Assembly: GCA_029007295.1 (NCBI GenBank)
Contig: JAQXHN010000041.1
Span: 1-46,312, forward strand
From: Clostridia bacterium
GTDB taxonomy: Bacteria > Bacillota > Clostridia > Oscillospirales > CAG-272
DNA: 46,312 nt
Reading direction: 5' to 3'
The notes beneath the pieces are model-generated. The model ran no database searches. It worked only from the letters and a program-made list of their open reading frames with translations, and was not told the DNA's origin. Below, one piece after another: positions 39,115 through 46,312 of the stretch. The first letter of the stretch is position 1; the number at the start of each line of letters is the position of its first letter. The translations under genes and the position numbers were made by a program.

Positions 39115-39190
39115 AGGGGTATAGCTCAGCTGGTAGAGCAGCGGTCTCCAAAACCGCGTGTCCAGAGTTCGAATCTTTGTGCCCCTGCCA
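39115..39190 (+). tRNA. trnW: tRNA-Trp (anticodon CCA)
   Basis: Complete 76-base cloverleaf. The acceptor stem AGGGGTA pairs with TGCCCCT, and CCA is encoded. The D-arm is GCTC-AGCTGGTA-GAGC, and the anticodon arm GCGGT-CTCCAAA-ACCGC reads CCA. The T-arm CAGAG-TTCGAAT-CTTTG has one G-T pair. It marks the boundary between host genes and the element to the right, and tRNA 3' ends are frequent integration targets. Confidence 0.97.
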
Positions 39191-39220
39191 TGATTGTGCG
39201 ACTATAAAGCACAAAAGCCG

Positions 39221-39247
39221 AAAACCCTTGAGAAATCAAGGGTTTTT
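39221..39247 (+). terminator. Terminator downstream of tRNA-Trp
   Basis: AAAACCCTTGA (39221-39231) pairs with TCAAGGGTTTT (39236-39246) around loop GAAA, followed by T. Ends the tRNA transcript. Confidence 0.9.
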
Positions 39248-39422
39248 CGCTGTTTTAAGGGCAAATTTCAAAGCATAATTTTAGGGCACAAAATTGAATA
39301 AATTGTTCGACCAAAGGGACTTGAACCGGGGTTTTGAAAATATCCCGATTTTGAGTCTCTTTTTCGCTACCCTACCGGATTTACTACCCCGCCACAGGGA
39401 TTTGAACTAAAGTTACATATTT

Positions 39423-39467
39423 AGACCGTAATTTCTTTTGTTCATAAAGATTTTACGGTCTTTTTTT
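39423..39467 (+). terminator. Terminator/attenuator upstream of parA
   Basis: AGACCGTAA (39423-39431) pairs with TTACGGTCT (39453-39461), loop 21 bases, followed by seven T's. A third copy of AGACCGTA lies at 39522-39529 and could compete for the same pairing. Confidence 0.7.
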
Positions 39468-39492
39468 ATGCCCATTTTACTCCTAAATTTGC

Positions 39493-39549
39493 GTCTGCAA
39501 GGTTTTTTGTATTTTACTTGCAGACCGTACATAGCCGCGTGTACGCGGC
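39493..39549 (+). promoter_or_regulatory. Inverted repeats in the parA leader
   Basis: GTCTGCAAG (39493-39501) and CTTGCAGAC (39517-39525) form a perfect 9-bp inverted repeat. GCCGCG (39534-39539) and CGCGGC (39544-39549) form a tight hairpin 9 bases before the GGAGG ribosome site. They may be operators for the partition proteins or leader RNA structures controlling parA. Confidence 0.6.
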
Positions 39550-39573
39550 AAATTGAATTAGGAGGTATATATA

Positions 39574-40398
39574 GTGAACTGCAAAGTAATTGCAATCGAA
39601 AATCAGAAGGGAGGCACGGGAAAATCGACTACTGCACTCAACCTCGGAGTCGGATTGAAAATGCACGGCAAAAAGGTTTTGCTTATTGACGCCGATCCGC
39701 AGGGTTCGCTTTCTATCAGTCTTGGTATTAAACGACCGGATGAGTTGGATGTTTCCCTTGCCACCCTTATGGGCAATGTCATCGACAATAATCCCTTTGA
39801 TGATGACTTCGGTATCATCCATTGTGACGAAGGGATCGACCTTATGCCCTGTAATGTGGAACTGTCCGGTATTGAAAGCTATCTGTTTACGGTTATGAGC
39901 CGGGAGTGCATTATGAGAACCTATGTCAATCAGGTTAAAAAGAACTACGACTATATTCTCATTGATTGTACTCCGTCGCTCGGACTTCTGCCAATTAACG
40001 CTTTTGTTGCGGCAGACAGTATCATTGTACCAAGCCAGCCGAGGATACTTTCAACGAAAGGTCTTGACCTACTTTTGCGTACCTATTCACAGGTAAAGCG
40101 CGGTATCAATCCCGACCTTAAAATCGACGGTATCCTATTTACAATGGTGGACGCACGAACCGTCAACGATAGGTCAGTCATTGAGTCTATGCGGGAAACC
40201 TTCGGAATGAAAATCAATGTGTTTGATACCTTTATCCCCACGTCCGTTCGTGTGACCGAAGCCAATATGGAAGGCAAAAGTATCTTTGCCTACGATAACA
40301 GGTGCAAGGTAGCGGACGCATACCGAAATCTGACGAAGGAGGTGCTGGATATTGCCGCGCGTGAAAAAGCTCGACTTAGGAATGACGGCTCTCGATGA
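39574..40398 (+). CDS. parA: ParA-family partition ATPase
   Basis: Walker-type DNA-partition ATPase, 274 residues. The deviant Walker A motif ENQKGGTGKSTTALNLG starts near residue 8, and the A' motif VLLIDADPQGSLS is near 34. Walker B YILIDCTPSLG is near 126. The start is a GTG placed 9 bases after GGAGG. No N-terminal helix-turn-helix is present, so it is the short (chromosomal/Soj-like) type. It overlaps parB by 47 bases. In this context it probably stabilises the excised circular form of the element rather than segregating the chromosome. Confidence 0.92.
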   Translation: MNCKVIAIENQKGGTGKSTTALNLGVGLKMHGKKVLLIDADPQGSLSISLGIKRPDELDVSLATLMGNVIDNNPFDDDFGIIHCDEGIDLMPCNVELSGIESYLFTVMSRECIMRTYVNQVKKNYDYILIDCTPSLGLLPINAFVAADSIIVPSQPRILSTKGLDLLLRTYSQVKRGINPDLKIDGILFTMVDARTVNDRSVIESMRETFGMKINVFDTFIPTSVRVTEANMEGKSIFAYDNRCKVADAYRNLTKEVLDIAAREKARLRNDGSR

Positions 40399-41284
40399 GC
40401 TATTTATGAACGACAAAGAGCGAGCCGAAAATAAGCTCCCGAAAATCTTTGATATTCCTCTTTCGGAGATTGACGATTTTCCCGACCATCCATACCGCGT
40501 CCTTGATGATGAAGATATGCAAAACCTTATGGAAAGTATCAGAGATCGCGGGGTTATCACTCCGGCTATGGTTCGCAAAAAGGAGGACGGCAGATATGAG
40601 ATGATTTCGGGACACCGACGGAAACACGCCTCCGAACGGCTCGGACTGGAAACCCTGCGTTGCGAGGTCGTTGAAGTCAGCCGAGATGAAGCGATTATCT
40701 TAATGGTTGACAGTAATGCTCAAAGGTCGGTAATTCTTCCTTGCGATAAAGGACGAGCATATAAAATGAAGTTGGACGCTATTAAAAGGCAAGGACAGCG
40801 GACAGATTTAACTTCTCGCCCGGTGGGCGAGAAGTTGTCAGTCACAGAACTTGCTGAAAATTCCGATGATAGCGAACGACAAATACACAGATATATCCGC
40901 CTAACCTATCTTGTGCCCGAGTTGCAGGAGTTTGTGGATAAGGGCGAAATGAAAATGCGTCCGGCGGTGGAACTGTCCTATCTCGATGAAGAAACCCAAC
41001 GGGATATTGTTGACCGTATTGACGAAACCGAAGCGTTTCCGTCGCACGACCAAGCAATCCGCATCCGCAAGGCATTTGAAGCCGGAGAAATCAACTACGA
41101 TAAGGTTCAGGATATTATGGCAGAAGAAAAGCCCAACCAAAAGCCGAAATTCAAGTTTTCCTTTGACCGGCTGAAGCCGTATATTCCAAAGGACTATAAC
41201 GACAGAATGGCTGAGGATTATGTTATAAAAGCTCTTGAATTCTATCAAAAGTATTTAAAGAAACAACGGGAGCAGGTAAGGTGA
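40352..41284 (+). CDS. parB: ParB-like partition protein
   Basis: 310 residues. The start is TTG 40352 (MPRVKKLDLGMTAL), 9 bases after AAGGAGG and within the parA end. The ParB N-terminal CTP-binding domain is visible: LSEIDDFPDHPYR near 38, NLMESIRDRGVITPAMVR near 58, and ISGHRRKHASERLG near 86. Helix-turn-helix KorB/Noc-type sequence LSVTELAENSDDSERQIHRY lies near 160. The C-terminal region is basic and helical, probably a dimer or DNA-binding tail. Targets may be the inverted repeats before parA. A hairpin terminator follows. Confidence 0.9.
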   Translation: MPRVKKLDLGMTALDELFMNDKERAENKLPKIFDIPLSEIDDFPDHPYRVLDDEDMQNLMESIRDRGVITPAMVRKKEDGRYEMISGHRRKHASERLGLETLRCEVVEVSRDEAIILMVDSNAQRSVILPCDKGRAYKMKLDAIKRQGQRTDLTSRPVGEKLSVTELAENSDDSERQIHRYIRLTYLVPELQEFVDKGEMKMRPAVELSYLDEETQRDIVDRIDETEAFPSHDQAIRIRKAFEAGEINYDKVQDIMAEEKPNQKPKFKFSFDRLKPYIPKDYNDRMAEDYVIKALEFYQKYLKKQREQVR

Positions 41285-41298
41285 CAAAGAGTGCGCAC

Positions 41299-41334
41299 AA
41301 GGCTTAGAAAGCAATAGCTTTCCCGGCCTTTTTT
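41299..41334 (+). terminator. Terminator after parB
   Basis: Outer stem AAGGC (41299-41303) / GCCTT (41326-41330) and inner stem GAAAGC (41307-41312) / GCTTTC (41317-41322), then six T's. It separates the partition unit from the pilus-type genes. Confidence 0.8.
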
Positions 41335-41393
41335 GTTGCCCTGCCCGCAATTTCACTCATATTAAAATCTTCAAAGGAAGGAGGAAAAACAGT

Positions 41394-41675
41394 ATGCAGT
41401 TTGATGTTAAAATCCGCAAGGTCATCGAGAACGGCAAGCCCCTCAAGGCAGTCGCTTCTGTCACCGTGGACGGTGCTTTTGCTATCCATAATGTCAGAGT
41501 AATCGAGACTGAAAACGCAAGGTTCGTTGCGATGCCTTATGCAACCGTTCAGGACGCCGAAGGTAAGGATGTCCGCCGTGACATCGTCCACCCCATCAAC
41601 TCCGAAGTCCGCAAGGCTTTGGAATCCGCTGTGTTTGCTGCCTATGAGCAGAAAATCAGCGAAAAGGCTGAATAA
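41394..41675 (+). CDS. SpoVG-family protein
   Basis: 93 residues of the SpoVG fold: small dimeric regulatory protein that binds RNA/DNA in other Firmicutes. Family pattern seen: LKAVASVTVDGAFAIHNVRVIE near 18-39, ARFVAMPYAT near 43, and DIVHPINSEVRKALESAVFAAYE near 61. The GGAGG-rich leader gives a strong start. SpoVG homologues are frequent on clostridial conjugative elements, where their role is not known; an effect on element gene expression is a guess. Another copy, the host spoVG, would be expected near glmU or pur genes elsewhere. Confidence 0.88.
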   Translation: MQFDVKIRKVIENGKPLKAVASVTVDGAFAIHNVRVIETENARFVAMPYATVQDAEGKDVRRDIVHPINSEVRKALESAVFAAYEQKISEKAE

Positions 41676-41730
41676 TTACAGCTACAAAAAAACAAACCAA
41701 AAAATTAAAAGAAAGAGAGGAAATTTAATC

Positions 41731-41961
41731 ATGAAAAAGTTTTTTAAGTCTATCCGCGATAAGTTCAATTCCGGCGTATGCGCAGTTCAGACTGTCATTG
41801 CCACAAAGAAAGCCGAGGGTTATGTGGATTCCGGTGTGAAGATTCTCATTGCCGTTGTTATCGGTGCGCTTTTGCTCGGCGGTCTTTACGCGTTGTTCAA
41901 CACTACGATCATGCCTACCGTGACGAGCAAGATCACCGAGCTGTTCTCGTATAACGGTTAA
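41731..41961 (+). CDS. Small pilin-like membrane peptide, copy 1 (DUF6133-like)
   Basis: 76 residues. A basic amphipathic N-terminus (MKKFFKSIRDKFNSG) is followed by ATKKAEGYVDSG at 25-36, one hydrophobic helix (about 37-56) and a polar tail ending SYNG. The layout resembles type IVb (Flp) prepilins, cut after a Gly before the helix. The natural site would be AEG|YVDSG at Gly30, though the usual Glu at +5 is missing (Asp at +3). It follows a strong GAGAGGAAA site and precedes a nearly identical second gene and a GxGD peptidase. It could also be a TrbC/VirB2-like conjugative pilin. Function is inferred. Confidence 0.75.
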   Translation: MKKFFKSIRDKFNSGVCAVQTVIATKKAEGYVDSGVKILIAVVIGALLLGGLYALFNTTIMPTVTSKITELFSYNG

Positions 41962-42009
41962 TCCGTAACACACTCAAAAATTAAAAAAGAAAGAATGAGG
42001 TAAAAGAAT

Positions 42010-42231
42010 ATGTTTAAGAAAATCAGAAACAAGGTAAACTCCGCAATTTCCACTGTCCGCGCTACTGTCGCCTGTAAAAAGGCTGAGGGTTATGTCGATT
42101 CCGGCGTAAAGATTCTCATTGCCGTCGTTATCGGTGCTCTCCTGCTCGGCGGACTGTATCTGCTGTTCAACGGCACCATTATGCCCACTGTCACCACCAA
42201 GATTCAGGGCTTGTTCAATTACGCAGGTTAA
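42010..42231 (+). CDS. Small pilin-like membrane peptide, copy 2 (DUF6133-like)
   Basis: 73 residues, a paralogue of the preceding gene. The 28 residues from KKAEGYVDSG through the hydrophobic helix to LLLGGLY are identical, and nearly all base differences there are synonymous, so selection keeps both copies. The N-terminal tails (MFKKIRNKVNSAIS) and extreme C-termini have drifted. The candidate peptidase site is Gly27. An AAGAATGAGG ribosome site lies before ATG. Tandem pilin copies are usual in Tad loci, where a major and a minor pilin occur. It may serve the machine encoded downstream. Confidence 0.75.
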   Translation: MFKKIRNKVNSAISTVRATVACKKAEGYVDSGVKILIAVVIGALLLGGLYLLFNGTIMPTVTTKIQGLFNYAG

Positions 42232-42300
42232 ACCGAACGGACGGAGGGGCGTCATAGGCGGCGTCCCTCCGCCTATTTTTTCTCAGAAAGGGGCGATACA

Positions 42301-42942
42301 ATGCAACACTTAATGATTCAGCCTATTATACCGCCAAGTATACCGAACTTAACTGAAAATCCGCTGATGCTCATAAAATGTTTTGTCCTGTTTGCGATAG
42401 CCGGTTTGACTGCCTTTGCGCTCAGCCGTTTTGCGGCAAATGAGTATAAGGGAAACAGGAAAAAAGCGGCTCTTTTCTTTGTCGGTATTACGGCATTCGT
42501 TACCCTTATGATGTTCTGTTTTTTTGGATGTGCTGCAACCGCTGTCAAGGGCATTATCTTCTGCCTGCTCCTTATGTTCTCCTCTTATGAGGATATTAAA
42601 ACAAGAGAGTGCGAGAACGATGTCCATATAATGATTGTGATTGCAGCGTTTATCGGGACGGATATGGCGGCTCTGCCGAATATGCTACTGTCGGCGCTGC
42701 TTGTAGGCGGCATTATGCTTGTAACCACCGTAATAACGAAAACCGGTATCGGCGGCGCGGATATAAAACTTTCCGCCGCGTGTGCGTTTATGCTCGGCAC
42801 AGTACAAGGAATGACAGGGCTGATGATAGGCTTGATACTTGCAGTCATTATCAATTCCATAAAAAACAGAAAGAAGAAAGACGAGGGATTTCCCTTGATC
42901 CCTTACCTTGCCGTCGGGTTTATGACGGCATATTTTATGTAG
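42301..42942 (+). CDS. A24-type prepilin peptidase (TadV-like)
   Basis: Membrane aspartyl protease of 213 residues with about six hydrophobic segments. The first catalytic Asp is in FSSYEDIKTREC near 99, and the second is in TGIGGADIKLSAA near 148, the GxGD motif (GGAD). It lacks the N-terminal zinc/methylase domain of PilD and so resembles TadV/CpaA. An AGAAAGGGG site precedes the ATG, 69 bases after the second pilin-like gene. Its presence makes processing of those two peptides likely. Confidence 0.9.
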   Translation: MQHLMIQPIIPPSIPNLTENPLMLIKCFVLFAIAGLTAFALSRFAANEYKGNRKKAALFFVGITAFVTLMMFCFFGCAATAVKGIIFCLLLMFSSYEDIKTRECENDVHIMIVIAAFIGTDMAALPNMLLSALLVGGIMLVTTVITKTGIGGADIKLSAACAFMLGTVQGMTGLMIGLILAVIINSIKNRKKKDEGFPLIPYLAVGFMTAYFM

Positions 42943-42960
42943 AAACAGGAGGTTGAAACC

Positions 42961-43683
42961 TTGAAGAACAGAACAATTATCGGCATTATCTGCATGATTC
43001 TTGCGGTTGCCATGACCTTTGCTGTCGCACCTATCGTAAACCGACTGACCAGCGACACAACTACGGTTGTCAGACTGAAGCAGGATGTCGGCAGAGGAGC
43101 TGAGATTACGGAGGAACTCGTTGAAACCGTAAAGGTTAAGACGGATACCATGCCGCAGGGCGTGTATGTGAAAATCGCTGATGTAGTCGGTAAATATGCG
43201 TCCTCCACCCTATATGCCGGAGATATTCTTACCAAAGCTAAGCTTTCCGGCGACGCGAACAGCGCCGAAGATGTATTTGCAACGCTAAACGGCACAAAGG
43301 TTGCGGTCAGCGTTACCATAGATACCTTTGCGGCGGGACTTTCGGGTAAGCTTCAAAACGGAGATATTATCTCCCTTATTGTTGTAGATAAAAATGCCGG
43401 AACTTCCACCATTCCCGGAGAGCTTAAATATATGAAGGTCATCACCACCACAACGGCGGGCGGTATCGACCAGGACTCGGTTGTGAAGAACGAGGACGGC
43501 AGCTTTGAGATTCCGAGCACCATTACGGTTCTTTGCAATACCGAACAGGCAAAGCTCCTTGCAAAGTATGAGGCGGACATTACCCTCCAAGCGGCGCTTG
43601 TTTACCGTGGAGATAACGAAACTGCAAACAAGTTCCTTGAAAAACAGGACGCTTTCTTTGCGGGAGGTGGCGCAAGTGAGTAA
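42961..43683 (+). CDS. cpaB: CpaB/RcpC-like Tad pilus assembly protein
   Basis: Secreted, membrane-anchored protein of 240 residues. One N-terminal hydrophobic segment (about 6-26) is followed by a SAF/beta-clip domain: VVRLKQDVGRGAEITEELVE near 35, then VGKYASSTLYAGDILTKAKL near 75. A second beta domain with LSGKLQNGDIISLIVVD near 120 matches the RcpC/CpaB pattern. CpaB is thought to help assemble the periplasmic or cell-wall side of Tad secretion systems. The start is TTG, 8 bases after AGGAGG. It overlaps the next gene by 8 bases. Confidence 0.85.
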   Translation: MKNRTIIGIICMILAVAMTFAVAPIVNRLTSDTTTVVRLKQDVGRGAEITEELVETVKVKTDTMPQGVYVKIADVVGKYASSTLYAGDILTKAKLSGDANSAEDVFATLNGTKVAVSVTIDTFAAGLSGKLQNGDIISLIVVDKNAGTSTIPGELKYMKVITTTTAGGIDQDSVVKNEDGSFEIPSTITVLCNTEQAKLLAKYEADITLQAALVYRGDNETANKFLEKQDAFFAGGGASE

Positions 43684-44389
43684 GATGATTGCCGTTTGCG
43701 GCGCTCCCGGCAGCGGCAAAACAACCGCCGCGCTTAAAATTGCGGAAGAAATCTATTACGCGAAGAAAGGCTCGGTTATATTTCTCTCGCCCGATCTGAA
43801 TGTACCTTGCCTTGCATTTATATTCCCGAACTGCAAGGAAGCGGAGCTTTATTCGGTCGGCGTAGCGCTTGACCGCACGGACATTTACCGTGAGGATGTG
43901 CTCCGCCAGATGAACCATGTCAAAACAATGGAGAACTTCGGCTTTCTTGGCTACAAAGCCGGTGAAAACAAGTATTCCTTTCCGCGACCTACCGAAGATA
44001 AAATCTTAAATCTGTTTTCCATTTTAAGAGAGCTTGCAGACTATGTAATCGTGGACTGTGCCGACGGGCTTATCTCCTCTATGGCGAAAAGCCATGCGGA
44101 CAGGCTCGTACAGCTCATTACTCCCGACCTTAAATGTATGGCGTACTATTCGTCCAATTCCGGAATGTTTGAACTTGGCGCCGAAAACCGCGTTAAGGTT
44201 ATGAATATTGCGGACAAGGATTTGTTTTTGCCTGTGTCAGAGGTTGCAAATCACTTTAAGGGCGTAGATTTTACACTTCCGTTTTCAAAGGCATTAAAAC
44301 AGCAGACCATTACGGGAACGCTGTCCGAACGGCTTCCCGACGCAAAGTACAGGAGCGTGGCGGCGGGCATTGCAAAGGCGGTGATCTGA
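43676..44389 (+). CDS. TadZ/CpaE-like MinD-family ATPase
   Basis: 237 residues. I choose GTG 43676 (reading MSKMIAVCG), 8 bases after GGAGG and inside the end of cpaB; a longer frame from 43505 overlaps cpaB. The P-loop is CGAPGSGKTT near 8, an ordinary Walker A with GKT rather than the deviant KGGxGK of ParA. YVIVDCADGLIS near 121 is the Walker B-like segment. CpaE/TadZ proteins localise pilus machinery to the cell pole. The N-terminal receiver-like domain of full CpaE is missing, and this short form is typical of conjugative elements in Firmicutes. It shares one base (TGATG) with cpaF. Confidence 0.8.
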   Translation: MSKMIAVCGAPGSGKTTAALKIAEEIYYAKKGSVIFLSPDLNVPCLAFIFPNCKEAELYSVGVALDRTDIYREDVLRQMNHVKTMENFGFLGYKAGENKYSFPRPTEDKILNLFSILRELADYVIVDCADGLISSMAKSHADRLVQLITPDLKCMAYYSSNSGMFELGAENRVKVMNIADKDLFLPVSEVANHFKGVDFTLPFSKALKQQTITGTLSERLPDAKYRSVAAGIAKAVI

Positions 44390-45702
44390 TGGCTCAGACA
44401 ATCGACTTTGTTTCTCTGCTTCATAAATCTCAGGAATATATCTCCGAAAACTATGCGGCGGCGCTTTCCGACCGCAGTAAGGTGGTGCAGCTTCGCTCAT
44501 ATATCGATAAATATCTGCACGACAGCGGCTTTGAGGTGGAAGGTATGACCTTCCGTGAACTATCGGACAGACTCTACTCTGAAATGGCGGAATATTCGGT
44601 GCTGACGAAATATCTCGGCCGTGATGAAATTGAAGAAATCAATATCAACGGTTGGGACGATATTGCCGTCACCTATACGGACGGTCATATTGAGAAAGCC
44701 AAAGAGCATTTCTATAATCCGCAGCATGCCGTAGATGTGGTGAAAAGACTTTTGCATCATTCCGGTATGATTATCGACAACGCAACGCCTATGTCGCAGG
44801 GACACCTGCCCGGCAACACCCGAATTACGGCGCTGAAAGAACCGCTTGTAGACGATGACCGTGGTATCAGCGTGTCAATCCGTCTGCTTCATCCGTCGAG
44901 GGTGGATATGAAAGCGCTTGTAAAGGGCGGTAATGCCACACAAAAAATGATAGACTTTCTCTGTATGTGTTTGCGCTACGGCGTATCCTTTGTGGTTGCC
45001 GGCGCGACTTCATCGGGTAAAACGACGCTTCTGAACGCACTTCTCACTTCTATTCCGGATAATAAGCGAATTTTTACCATTGAGTCCGGTTCCCGCGAGC
45101 TGTCGCTTGTTAAGGTTAAGGACGGCAAGGTAATCAACAATGTGGTGCATACGCTTTCCCGTCCGTCGGACAACCCGGCATACGATATAACCCAAGAGGA
45201 TTTGGTGGTAGCGTCTCTCCGATTTAATCCGGACATCGTGGTAGTCGGAGAAATGCGCGATACCGAGGCCTATTCGGCAGTGGAAGCAAGTCTAACCGGA
45301 CACACGGTTGTATCTACCATTCACGCAAGTGCGGCGGACGCGGCGCATATGCGCTTGGCTCTGCTTTGTCAGAAACGCTTTCCCATTAACTTTGCGACCT
45401 CGCTTATGCAGGCGGGACAGGCGTTTCCGGTGGTAGTATACGCTCATAAGCTGGAAGACAATTCCCGTAAGATTATGGACATCTCCGAGTGCGTGATTAC
45501 ACCCTCCGGCGAACGGGAATACCATACGCTTTTCCGTTATCGTATCACAAAAAACGAATTGAAACGCGGCAAGTACAAAATCGACGGCTACTTTGAACAG
45601 CCGGAGATTATGAGCGACCACCTGAAAGCAAAGCTTTTGCAGTTCGGTGTGCCGCAGAAAACCTTGGAGCAGTTTTTAGTAAAGGACGGTGATTTCAAGT
45701 GA
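44389..45702 (+). CDS. cpaF: CpaF/TadA-family secretion ATPase
   Basis: Hexameric type II/IV secretion ATPase of 437 residues that powers Tad pilus assembly or conjugation (VirB11 relative). An N-terminal domain with YLGRDEIEEININGWDDIA near 75 precedes Walker A VVAGATSSGKTTLLNAL near 203. Walker B PDIVVVGEMRDTEAYSAVEA lies near 282, followed by the His box TGHTVVSTIHAS. All catalytic parts are intact. The start codon overlaps the previous stop by one base, so translation is coupled. It is the best conserved landmark of this locus. Confidence 0.93.
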   Translation: MAQTIDFVSLLHKSQEYISENYAAALSDRSKVVQLRSYIDKYLHDSGFEVEGMTFRELSDRLYSEMAEYSVLTKYLGRDEIEEININGWDDIAVTYTDGHIEKAKEHFYNPQHAVDVVKRLLHHSGMIIDNATPMSQGHLPGNTRITALKEPLVDDDRGISVSIRLLHPSRVDMKALVKGGNATQKMIDFLCMCLRYGVSFVVAGATSSGKTTLLNALLTSIPDNKRIFTIESGSRELSLVKVKDGKVINNVVHTLSRPSDNPAYDITQEDLVVASLRFNPDIVVVGEMRDTEAYSAVEASLTGHTVVSTIHASAADAAHMRLALLCQKRFPINFATSLMQAGQAFPVVVYAHKLEDNSRKIMDISECVITPSGEREYHTLFRYRITKNELKRGKYKIDGYFEQPEIMSDHLKAKLLQFGVPQKTLEQFLVKDGDFK

Positions 45703-46312
45703 TCTTTTCATGTATAAGCTCGGCTCTCATTATTATATCTGTCGTGTGTCTTTTCGGACTAACGCCCGAACAGGTCACCGACGATTTAATGAAGCTGATA
45801 ACGCCTAACGATACAATGCGGGATAAATCCCGTAATCTTCGCGGAAACAAAAAGAAACACCGCCTTTACCGCACACTTGTGAAGATGAAAACCGCGCTTG
45901 CGGTTACGGGCAAATCTAAGCAGTTTACGATTGTCTGCTGTGCGTCGCTTATTCTTTTTGCGGCGGGAATTATTGTGTCGGTGCTGATAGATAACATCTT
46001 TCTTATGCCGGTACTGTCGGTTGCGTTTGCCCTGATTCCGTTTTTCTATACCACAAGCACGCTGTCATATTACGAAAAGAACACCAAGGAGGAGCTTGAA
46101 ACCGCGCTGTCTATCATTACCACCTCGTATGTACGCTCGGACGATATTGTTTCGGCGGTCAGAGAGAATATAAAGTATATCAAGCCGCCGCTTCGTGATG
46201 TGTTCAAGTCCTTTGAGGGCGAAGCGACCGCCATTTCCTCGAATATTAAACGCGCACTTTACAAGCTGAAGGATAAGGTGGACAATGAAATATTTTGGGA
46301 GTGGTGCGACAC
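45699..46312 (+). CDS. tadB: TadB-like inner-membrane platform protein, N-terminal part (partial)
   Basis: Starts with GTG 45699 inside the end of cpaF (reading MIFSCISSALIII) and is open at the right edge after 204 codons. A hydrophobic segment at 3-20, a basic region (RDKSRNLRGNKKKHRLYR), and two further hydrophobic segments at about 75-120 are visible. A cytoplasmic T2SSF-like helical part begins with YYEKNTKEELETALSIIT. The order TadZ-TadA-TadB is the standard core of Tad pilus loci; tadC should follow outside the window. Identification rests on position and topology more than motifs. Confidence 0.8.
   Translation, partial: MIFSCISSALIIISVVCLFGLTPEQVTDDLMKLITPNDTMRDKSRNLRGNKKKHRLYRTLVKMKTALAVTGKSKQFTIVCCASLILFAAGIIVSVLIDNIFLMPVLSVAFALIPFFYTTSTLSYYEKNTKEELETALSIITTSYVRSDDIVSAVRENIKYIKPPLRDVFKSFEGEATAISSNIKRALYKLKDKVDNEIFWEWCD

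Follow-up and report, generated by a model that had tools for sequence, protein, structure and literature searches.

Type IV secretion systems (T4SSs) of Gram-positive bacteria have been described without conjugative pili, often with adhesins instead (PMC12857230). For the IncI plasmids and PAPI-1 of diderm bacteria, a type IV pilus is reported to aid transfer or to be essential for it (PMC12857230, PMC8213034). For the linear tad plasmids of Cutibacterium acnes, a putative pilin has been detected by mass spectrometry, and the link between pili and conjugation was left open (PMC5696575). Here, we analysed a DNA stretch of 46,312 nucleotides (positions 1-46312 of contig JAQXHN010000041.1 of a Clostridia bacterium, hereafter the window), whose part 39574-46312 carries partition genes followed by the beginning of a Tad pilus gene cluster. 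We consider it probable that these last 6.7 kb represent the left end of a clostridial integrative and conjugative element (ICE) of ~45-70 kb, which combines ParAB and SpoVG, a Tad pilus and, as seen in relatives, a CD1110/CD1115-type T4SS with a MOB_P relaxase.

This interpretation draws mostly on relatives that continue where the window stops. Searching with CpaF turned up 48 loci, which with few exceptions come from metagenome-assembled Clostridia, and the continuation was read from the close relative G059 and ten further elements, eleven complete or near-complete ones altogether. The closest locus with long flanks, L016 of genome G059, encodes a CpaF 97% identical to that of the window, and its DNA is 85% identical over 6.7 kb, from position 39568 (just 5' of the parA start codon) to the window end. 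In G059, cpaF is followed by tadB (307 amino acids, aa), tadC (289 aa), a DUF4320 protein at the TadE position, a TadF-like protein and a small membrane protein. Further on are a 1094-aa secreted protein, a 2793-aa helicase/methylase, a NikA/MobC-like protein, the MOB_P relaxase and VirD4; a Maff2-like peptide, TrbL, PrgI, VirB4 and a protein at the VirB1 position come next. The same order on a single strand is found in 11 of 11 elements, each of which has a relaxase, a coupling protein and VirB4 together. The VirB4 of G059 reaches 1040.8 bits with NF045971 (CD1110 family; NCBI cut-off 325) and its VirD4 537.9 bits with NF045973 (CD1115 family; NCBI cut-off 250). The relaxase matches PF03432 (2e-39), and NikA-like MobC, DUF4320 and PrgI were also matched in relatives. 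In most of them the final gene product is a wall hydrolase with a CHAP or M23 domain; it was not found in G061p and G095. The original prediction had proposed a mobile element carrying partition genes of its own together with a Tad machine, and had suggested looking past position 46312 for tadC, TadE/F-like pseudopilins, a relaxase, a coupling protein and an integrase. Complete relatives have the first four, and recombinases as well. They lie at variable sites and support the proposal of a mobile element, and an ICE is likely for the window copy, whose contig ends in tadB. The prediction is not supported where it sets the Tad device apart as unlike VirB4-type channels: relatives of VirB4, VirD4, PrgI and TrbL are encoded beside Tad in all eleven elements. 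The Tad machine, judging from gene content, accompanies the VirB4/VirD4 channel and is not its replacement.

Tad and transfer genes are also linked in position and appear to share a history. In elements that could be read through, VirB4 lies ~28-42 kb downstream of CpaF on the same contig and strand. In a second group (L033, L058 and G004:C26), a divergent VirB4 is located 12-20 kb downstream of CpaF. In all elements read, the Tad cluster stands between parAB and the relaxase/T4SS genes, outside the variable region past the wall hydrolase. Pairwise distances of VirB4 are correlated with those of CpaF and TadC (r 0.67 and 0.70, respectively; p 0.0005, n 11), and the correlation with the relaxase is equally strong (r 0.69). 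The distribution of the elements is sporadic: in a sample of 59 genomes that includes the source genome, strong CpaF matches (56-83% identity) were found in 4 of the 58 others. Several single elements deserve separate mention. In the G060 element (L069-L071), three adjacent tyrosine recombinases are located between VirB4 and the wall-hydrolase gene, after which come an ArsR-like regulator and a metal P-type ATPase-like gene; a nested insertion and metal-resistance cargo are possible. Contig G061:C6 (L072-L078) carries two diverged element copies, and other VirB4 relatives (72% identity) are found on C40 and C42 of that genome. Locus L024 (QKJH01000080.1; CpaF 83%) is a clostridial element in a record labelled Alphaproteobacteria, for which mis-binning is more likely than inter-phylum transfer.

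In the window itself, the genes for ParA, ParB, SpoVG, two DUF6133 peptides, a prepilin peptidase, CpaB, TadZ, CpaF and the start of TadB follow one another in this order on the plus strand (Table 1), and from cpaB to tadB neighbouring genes overlap or almost abut. This agrees with the original prediction of a tightly coupled gene order next to a tRNA, since an intact tRNA-Trp lies 384 bp upstream of the parA start, just outside 39574-46312. The reading frames seen are all uninterrupted, most of them with 92-97% identity to the element of G059. The GC content of the element part is 0.472 vs 0.402 for positions 1-39190. Upstream windows of 6.7 kb have a mean of 0.401 (standard deviation 0.006, maximum 0.414), which places the element ~11 standard deviations higher, and its dinucleotide distance (0.062) exceeds that of all chromosomal windows (maximum 0.054). 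The GC step and the dinucleotide distance support a foreign origin of this part. As for individual assignments, the solved structures nearest to the window CpaF are those of CpaF, and PF01478 (peptidase) and PF16976 (CpaB) score above their cut-offs, with TIGR03177 (67.6 bits) slightly below its cut-off of 71. Pfam gave no significant model for the window TadB or TadZ, both of which are named mainly by position, size and homology to annotated clusters, and TadZ had no match by sequence among solved structures. The TadB/TadC pair of G059 consists of adjacent membrane proteins with a weak T2SSF match (E 0.72), and the Terrisporobacter homologue of TadC is annotated as 'secretion protein F'.

Table 1. 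Features at the right end of the window (coordinates refer to the window).
Feature	Position	Strand	Basis
tRNA-Trp, intact, CCA anticodon; probable attachment neighbourhood in the chromosome	39115..39190	+	ARAGORN; Rfam RF00005 62.5 bits
Leader between tRNA and parA: stem-loops and two antisense tRNA T-arm-like motifs, GGACTTGAACC and GGATTTGAACT	39191..39573	.	Alignment with leaders of L021, L054, L043 and L057
ParA partition ATPase, GTG start	39574..40398	+	Pfam AAA_31 3e-51
ParB	40352..41284	+	Pfam ParB_N 5e-16; TIGR00180 above cut-off
SpoVG homologue	41394..41675	+	Pfam SpoVG 2e-26
DUF6133 peptide 1, probable Flp-type pilin	41731..41961	+	PF19629 3e-24; prepilin-like motif in common with TadE/TadF
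DUF6133 peptide 2, probable Flp-type pilin	42010..42231	+	PF19629 6e-25; prepilin-like motif in common with TadE/TadF
A24 prepilin peptidase (TadV/CpaA role)	42301..42942	+	PF01478 1e-10; two candidate aspartates in translation (YEDIKTR, GGADIK)
CpaB/RcpC (RcpC + SAF)	42961..43683	+	PF16976, SAF, TIGR03177 9.5e-19
TadZ-like P-loop ATPase	43685..44389	+	Position; P-loop CGAPGSGKTT; homologues in corresponding position of plasmid clusters, one of them annotated as AAA ATPase
CpaF/TadA pilus motor ATPase	44389..45702	+	T2SSE 7e-34; CpaF structures E 8e-29
TadB platform protein, truncated at contig end (5' part only)	45699..46312	+	96% identity to complete 307-aa G059 protein

To our knowledge, DUF6133 has no assigned function. 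In the sampled genomes, DUF6133 matches above the cut-off were found only where CpaF of the same Tad kind occurs, and within ~4 kb of cpaF except in one fragmented assembly. The DUF6133, DUF4320 and TadF-like proteins start alike, with a short basic leader, a motif of the type [AG]-[DE]-[GA]-Y-[VI] (the start as a whole being of the type K-[KR]-[AG]-[DE]-G-Y-[VI]) and a hydrophobic stretch. Prepilin signals have this layout, although the classical Flp site G/xxxxEY is lacking; the co-encoded A24 peptidase retains both candidate catalytic aspartates. Because of the prepilin-like motif held in common with TadE/TadF and the co-occurrence with the Tad cluster, DUF6133 is probably the major pilin, with DUF4320 and TadF as probable pseudopilins. 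Soon after TadF, all elements read encode a large secreted protein of 743-1503 aa, in which variable repeats (List_Bact in some) are flanked by conserved N- and C-terminal regions, the latter with 31 columns invariant across 22 sequences; no LPXTG anchor was noticed in it. The C-terminal region is predicted to form Ig/FN3-like sandwiches (model confidence, pLDDT, 87), and its model is best matched by one dextranase domain (Z 10.6, root-mean-square deviation 2.2, 108 aligned residues), which yields no functional call. For the N-terminal region, modelled with a pLDDT of 70, no structure matched significantly. From its position and fold class, one might guess that this protein is a pilus-tip or contact adhesin.

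The location of the elements varies. Seven of ~20 loci with upstream sequence have a same-strand upstream tRNA, and six kinds are represented among these tRNAs (Trp, Leu, Arg-ACG, Arg-CCT in two loci, Asn and Cys); other copies have none. As the neighbours are different tRNAs or other sites altogether, the family has no conserved chromosomal location; the original prediction had named a conserved location in relatives, together with a lack of mobility genes beyond the window, as what would refute it. The distance from the tRNA to the start of the first par gene is 372-396 bp in the window, L021, L054 and L043, and integration of the window element at tRNA-Trp is likely. The leader of the window (39310-39400, minus strand) and those of L021, L054, L043, L057 and L023 contain antisense tRNA T-arm-like motifs, GGACTYGAACC and variants. 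There are one or two such motifs per leader in tRNA-adjacent copies, and the strict motif was present in 1 of 14 other loci checked (L023). They could be att scars or recombinase sites, which would explain the use of many tRNAs. Two regions from other genera of the family, G009:C1:252559-279717 (L120, L121) and G032:C15:70230-79820 (L119), contain a downstream repeat of the 45 bp at the 3' end of tRNA-Trp. The repeats in G009 bracket tyrosine integrase and relaxase-like genes, and both regions contain ABC transporter/subtilase cassettes; tRNA-Trp is thus an insertion hotspot. Other genera of the family have neither such an element nor conserved sequence 3' of tRNA-Trp, but their distance from the source genome does not allow a clean empty-site comparison. 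Tandem large serine recombinases lie past the right end in two relatives, G062 and G096, as three to four copies with ~23-34% mutual identity (G096 element 45280-51579, L102-L104; G062:C11:43708-47859). Two other candidates were set aside: the tyrosine integrase at G062:C11:15962 is bracketed by the inverted repeat CGTAAAGTATTTCCATTGAAG and probably belongs to a separate small element, and the integrase contig G000:C22 has no link to the element.

Several observations weigh against an ICE with a mating pilus. The rest of the source assembly (G000; 1.75 Mb, 97% complete) contains neither DNA similar to 20 kb of the G059 downstream part nor a VirB4 relative. No second tRNA-Trp 3' end, which might mark attR, was found in it, and for the copy next to tRNA-Leu, 105 kb of G062:C11 likewise held no tRNA 3' repeat. 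No attL/attR pair has been demonstrated for the family, and the 8-10 bp repeats found are about as frequent as expected by chance. CpaF and VirD4 distances are uncorrelated; VirD4 is correlated with no partner tested, VirB4 included, so that its distances are uninformative. CD1110-type VirB4 above the cut-off occurs in 5 of the 59 sampled genomes and is Tad-linked only in G054. Since most such systems have no linked Tad, the CD1110-type T4SS works without it, and both the pilus and the transfer of this family are predicted from genes. The missing downstream DNA would fit a decayed or Tad-only genomic island without transfer genes in the source genome. We regard this as unlikely, given that the contig merely stops within tadB, that the visible frames are all intact and that they closely resemble a complete element; moreover, mobile DNA is frequently lost from metagenome-type assemblies. 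That the source genome carries the rest of the element may accordingly be supposed from its relatives. It is very improbable that the lineage simply has an ordinary Tad locus on its chromosome: Tad loci are widespread in bacteria (PMC6668835), but this one is absent from most relatives, varies in location and tRNA neighbours, and comes with parAB, a composition step and plasmid forms.

The role of the pilus is a different matter. Tad loci act as adhesins in several bacteria and are often plasmid-borne (PMC6668835, PMC5696575), and the pilus could be cargo, an adherence or colonisation organelle useful to the gut host cell, with DNA transfer proceeding independently of it. The lack of Tad in most CD1110-type systems would agree with this. 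The place of the cluster among the transfer genes, and not in the variable region past the wall hydrolase, points the other way, as do Tad distances that track VirB4 like those of the relaxase and the pairing of Tad with a second, divergent VirB4 type; on balance we find the cargo explanation rather doubtful. Judging by the five genomes with CD1110-type VirB4, only one of which has it linked to Tad, Tad is an accessory of a subset of these systems, yet it adjoins the transfer genes there. Tight linkage and correlated distances might even suggest that pilus and T4SS form a single DNA-transfer machine, in which Tad replaces absent envelope-spanning parts, as proposed for PAPI-1, reviewed as a chimera of a type IV pilus and VirB4/VirD4 (PMC12857230). 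Such a hybrid channel seems quite unlikely to us, because TrbL (VirB6), PrgI (VirB3) and wall hydrolases are also encoded, making up a seemingly complete Gram-positive channel, and because related T4SSs exist without Tad.

An accessory mating pilus is therefore favoured over cargo, because the Tad cluster adjoins the transfer genes and has a common history with VirB4. For the ICE as a whole, the gene content and order in relatives, the linkage and the variable location are supported by genome comparison, to which the near-identical continuation in G059, the plasmid homologues and the GC step add further weight. By analogy with the accessory type IV pili of IncI plasmids and PAPI-1, the pilus would most likely promote contact between donor and recipient. 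ParAB might maintain the excised circular form, while the A24 peptidase would trim both DUF6133 peptides as well as the pseudopilins DUF4320 and TadF. CpaF, working on the TadB/TadC platform and positioned by TadZ, would extend and retract a thin pilus, which, possibly together with the large secreted protein whose gene lies close to that of TadF, might draw the two cells together. Relaxase-bound DNA would then cross a VirD4-VirB4-TrbL-PrgI channel, aided by the CHAP or M23 wall hydrolase. We infer pilus production, its use in mating and the role of the secreted protein from the genes. It is tempting to go further and speculate, tentatively, that Tad is the true conjugative pilus of a Gram-positive ICE family, with DUF6133 as pilin and DUF4320/TadF and the secreted protein at the tip, and that transfer in dilute gut contents needs its extension and retraction. 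A widespread clostridial family with a complete Tad pilus beside transfer genes would give DUF6133 and DUF4320 a function and would point to a means by which gut Clostridia find distant recipients.

Among known systems, Tn1549/CTn-type ICEs of Clostridia have VirB4 and VirD4 equivalogs above the NCBI cut-offs (CD1110 and CD1115), a MOB_P relaxase with a NikA/MobC-like partner, PrgI, a TrbL-like protein and a CHAP or M23 hydrolase in common with the present family, in which, unlike in those ICEs, parAB-spoVG and a full Tad cluster stand before the relaxase. IncI plasmids (R64, TP114) and PAPI-1 likewise carry a T4SS-unrelated pilus cluster on the same conjugative element. Their hosts are diderm, and they use type IVb-class pili, PilV-type tips and Dot/Icm-like or minimal T4SSs, whereas the channel of the clostridial element is of the CD1110 type and its Tad pilus that of a monoderm. 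More diverged forms of the same cluster (CpaF 38-44%) occur on complete circular plasmids from Terrisporobacter, Clostridioides difficile and an oscillospiraceal isolate. Two of them, pTPHSE1 (Terrisporobacter) and pCd5_2 (C. difficile), have the order A24 peptidase-CpaB-TadZ-CpaF-TadB-TadC-DUF4320-TadF, after which come CD1115 VirD4 and a pLS20_p028-type protein; two DUF6133 genes and a MobP2 relaxase are additionally present on pTPHSE1. The two differ in being circular plasmids with other partition/replication genes and a CpaF only 39-44% identical. PLSDB types NZ_CP154620.1 and NZ_CP037841.1 as non-mobilizable, despite CD1115 VirD4 annotated on both and the MobP2 relaxase on pTPHSE1. In the collection of papers searched, none was found that names DUF6133 or a clostridial Tad ICE, which is weak evidence of absence. 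The linear tad plasmids of C. acnes also unite a Tad locus and a VirB4-like gene on one Gram-positive replicon (PMC5696575), but they are actinobacterial, linear and encode an FtsK-like translocase. The family described here extends the combination of Tad and VirB4 genes to clostridial mobile elements with a CD1110-type channel.

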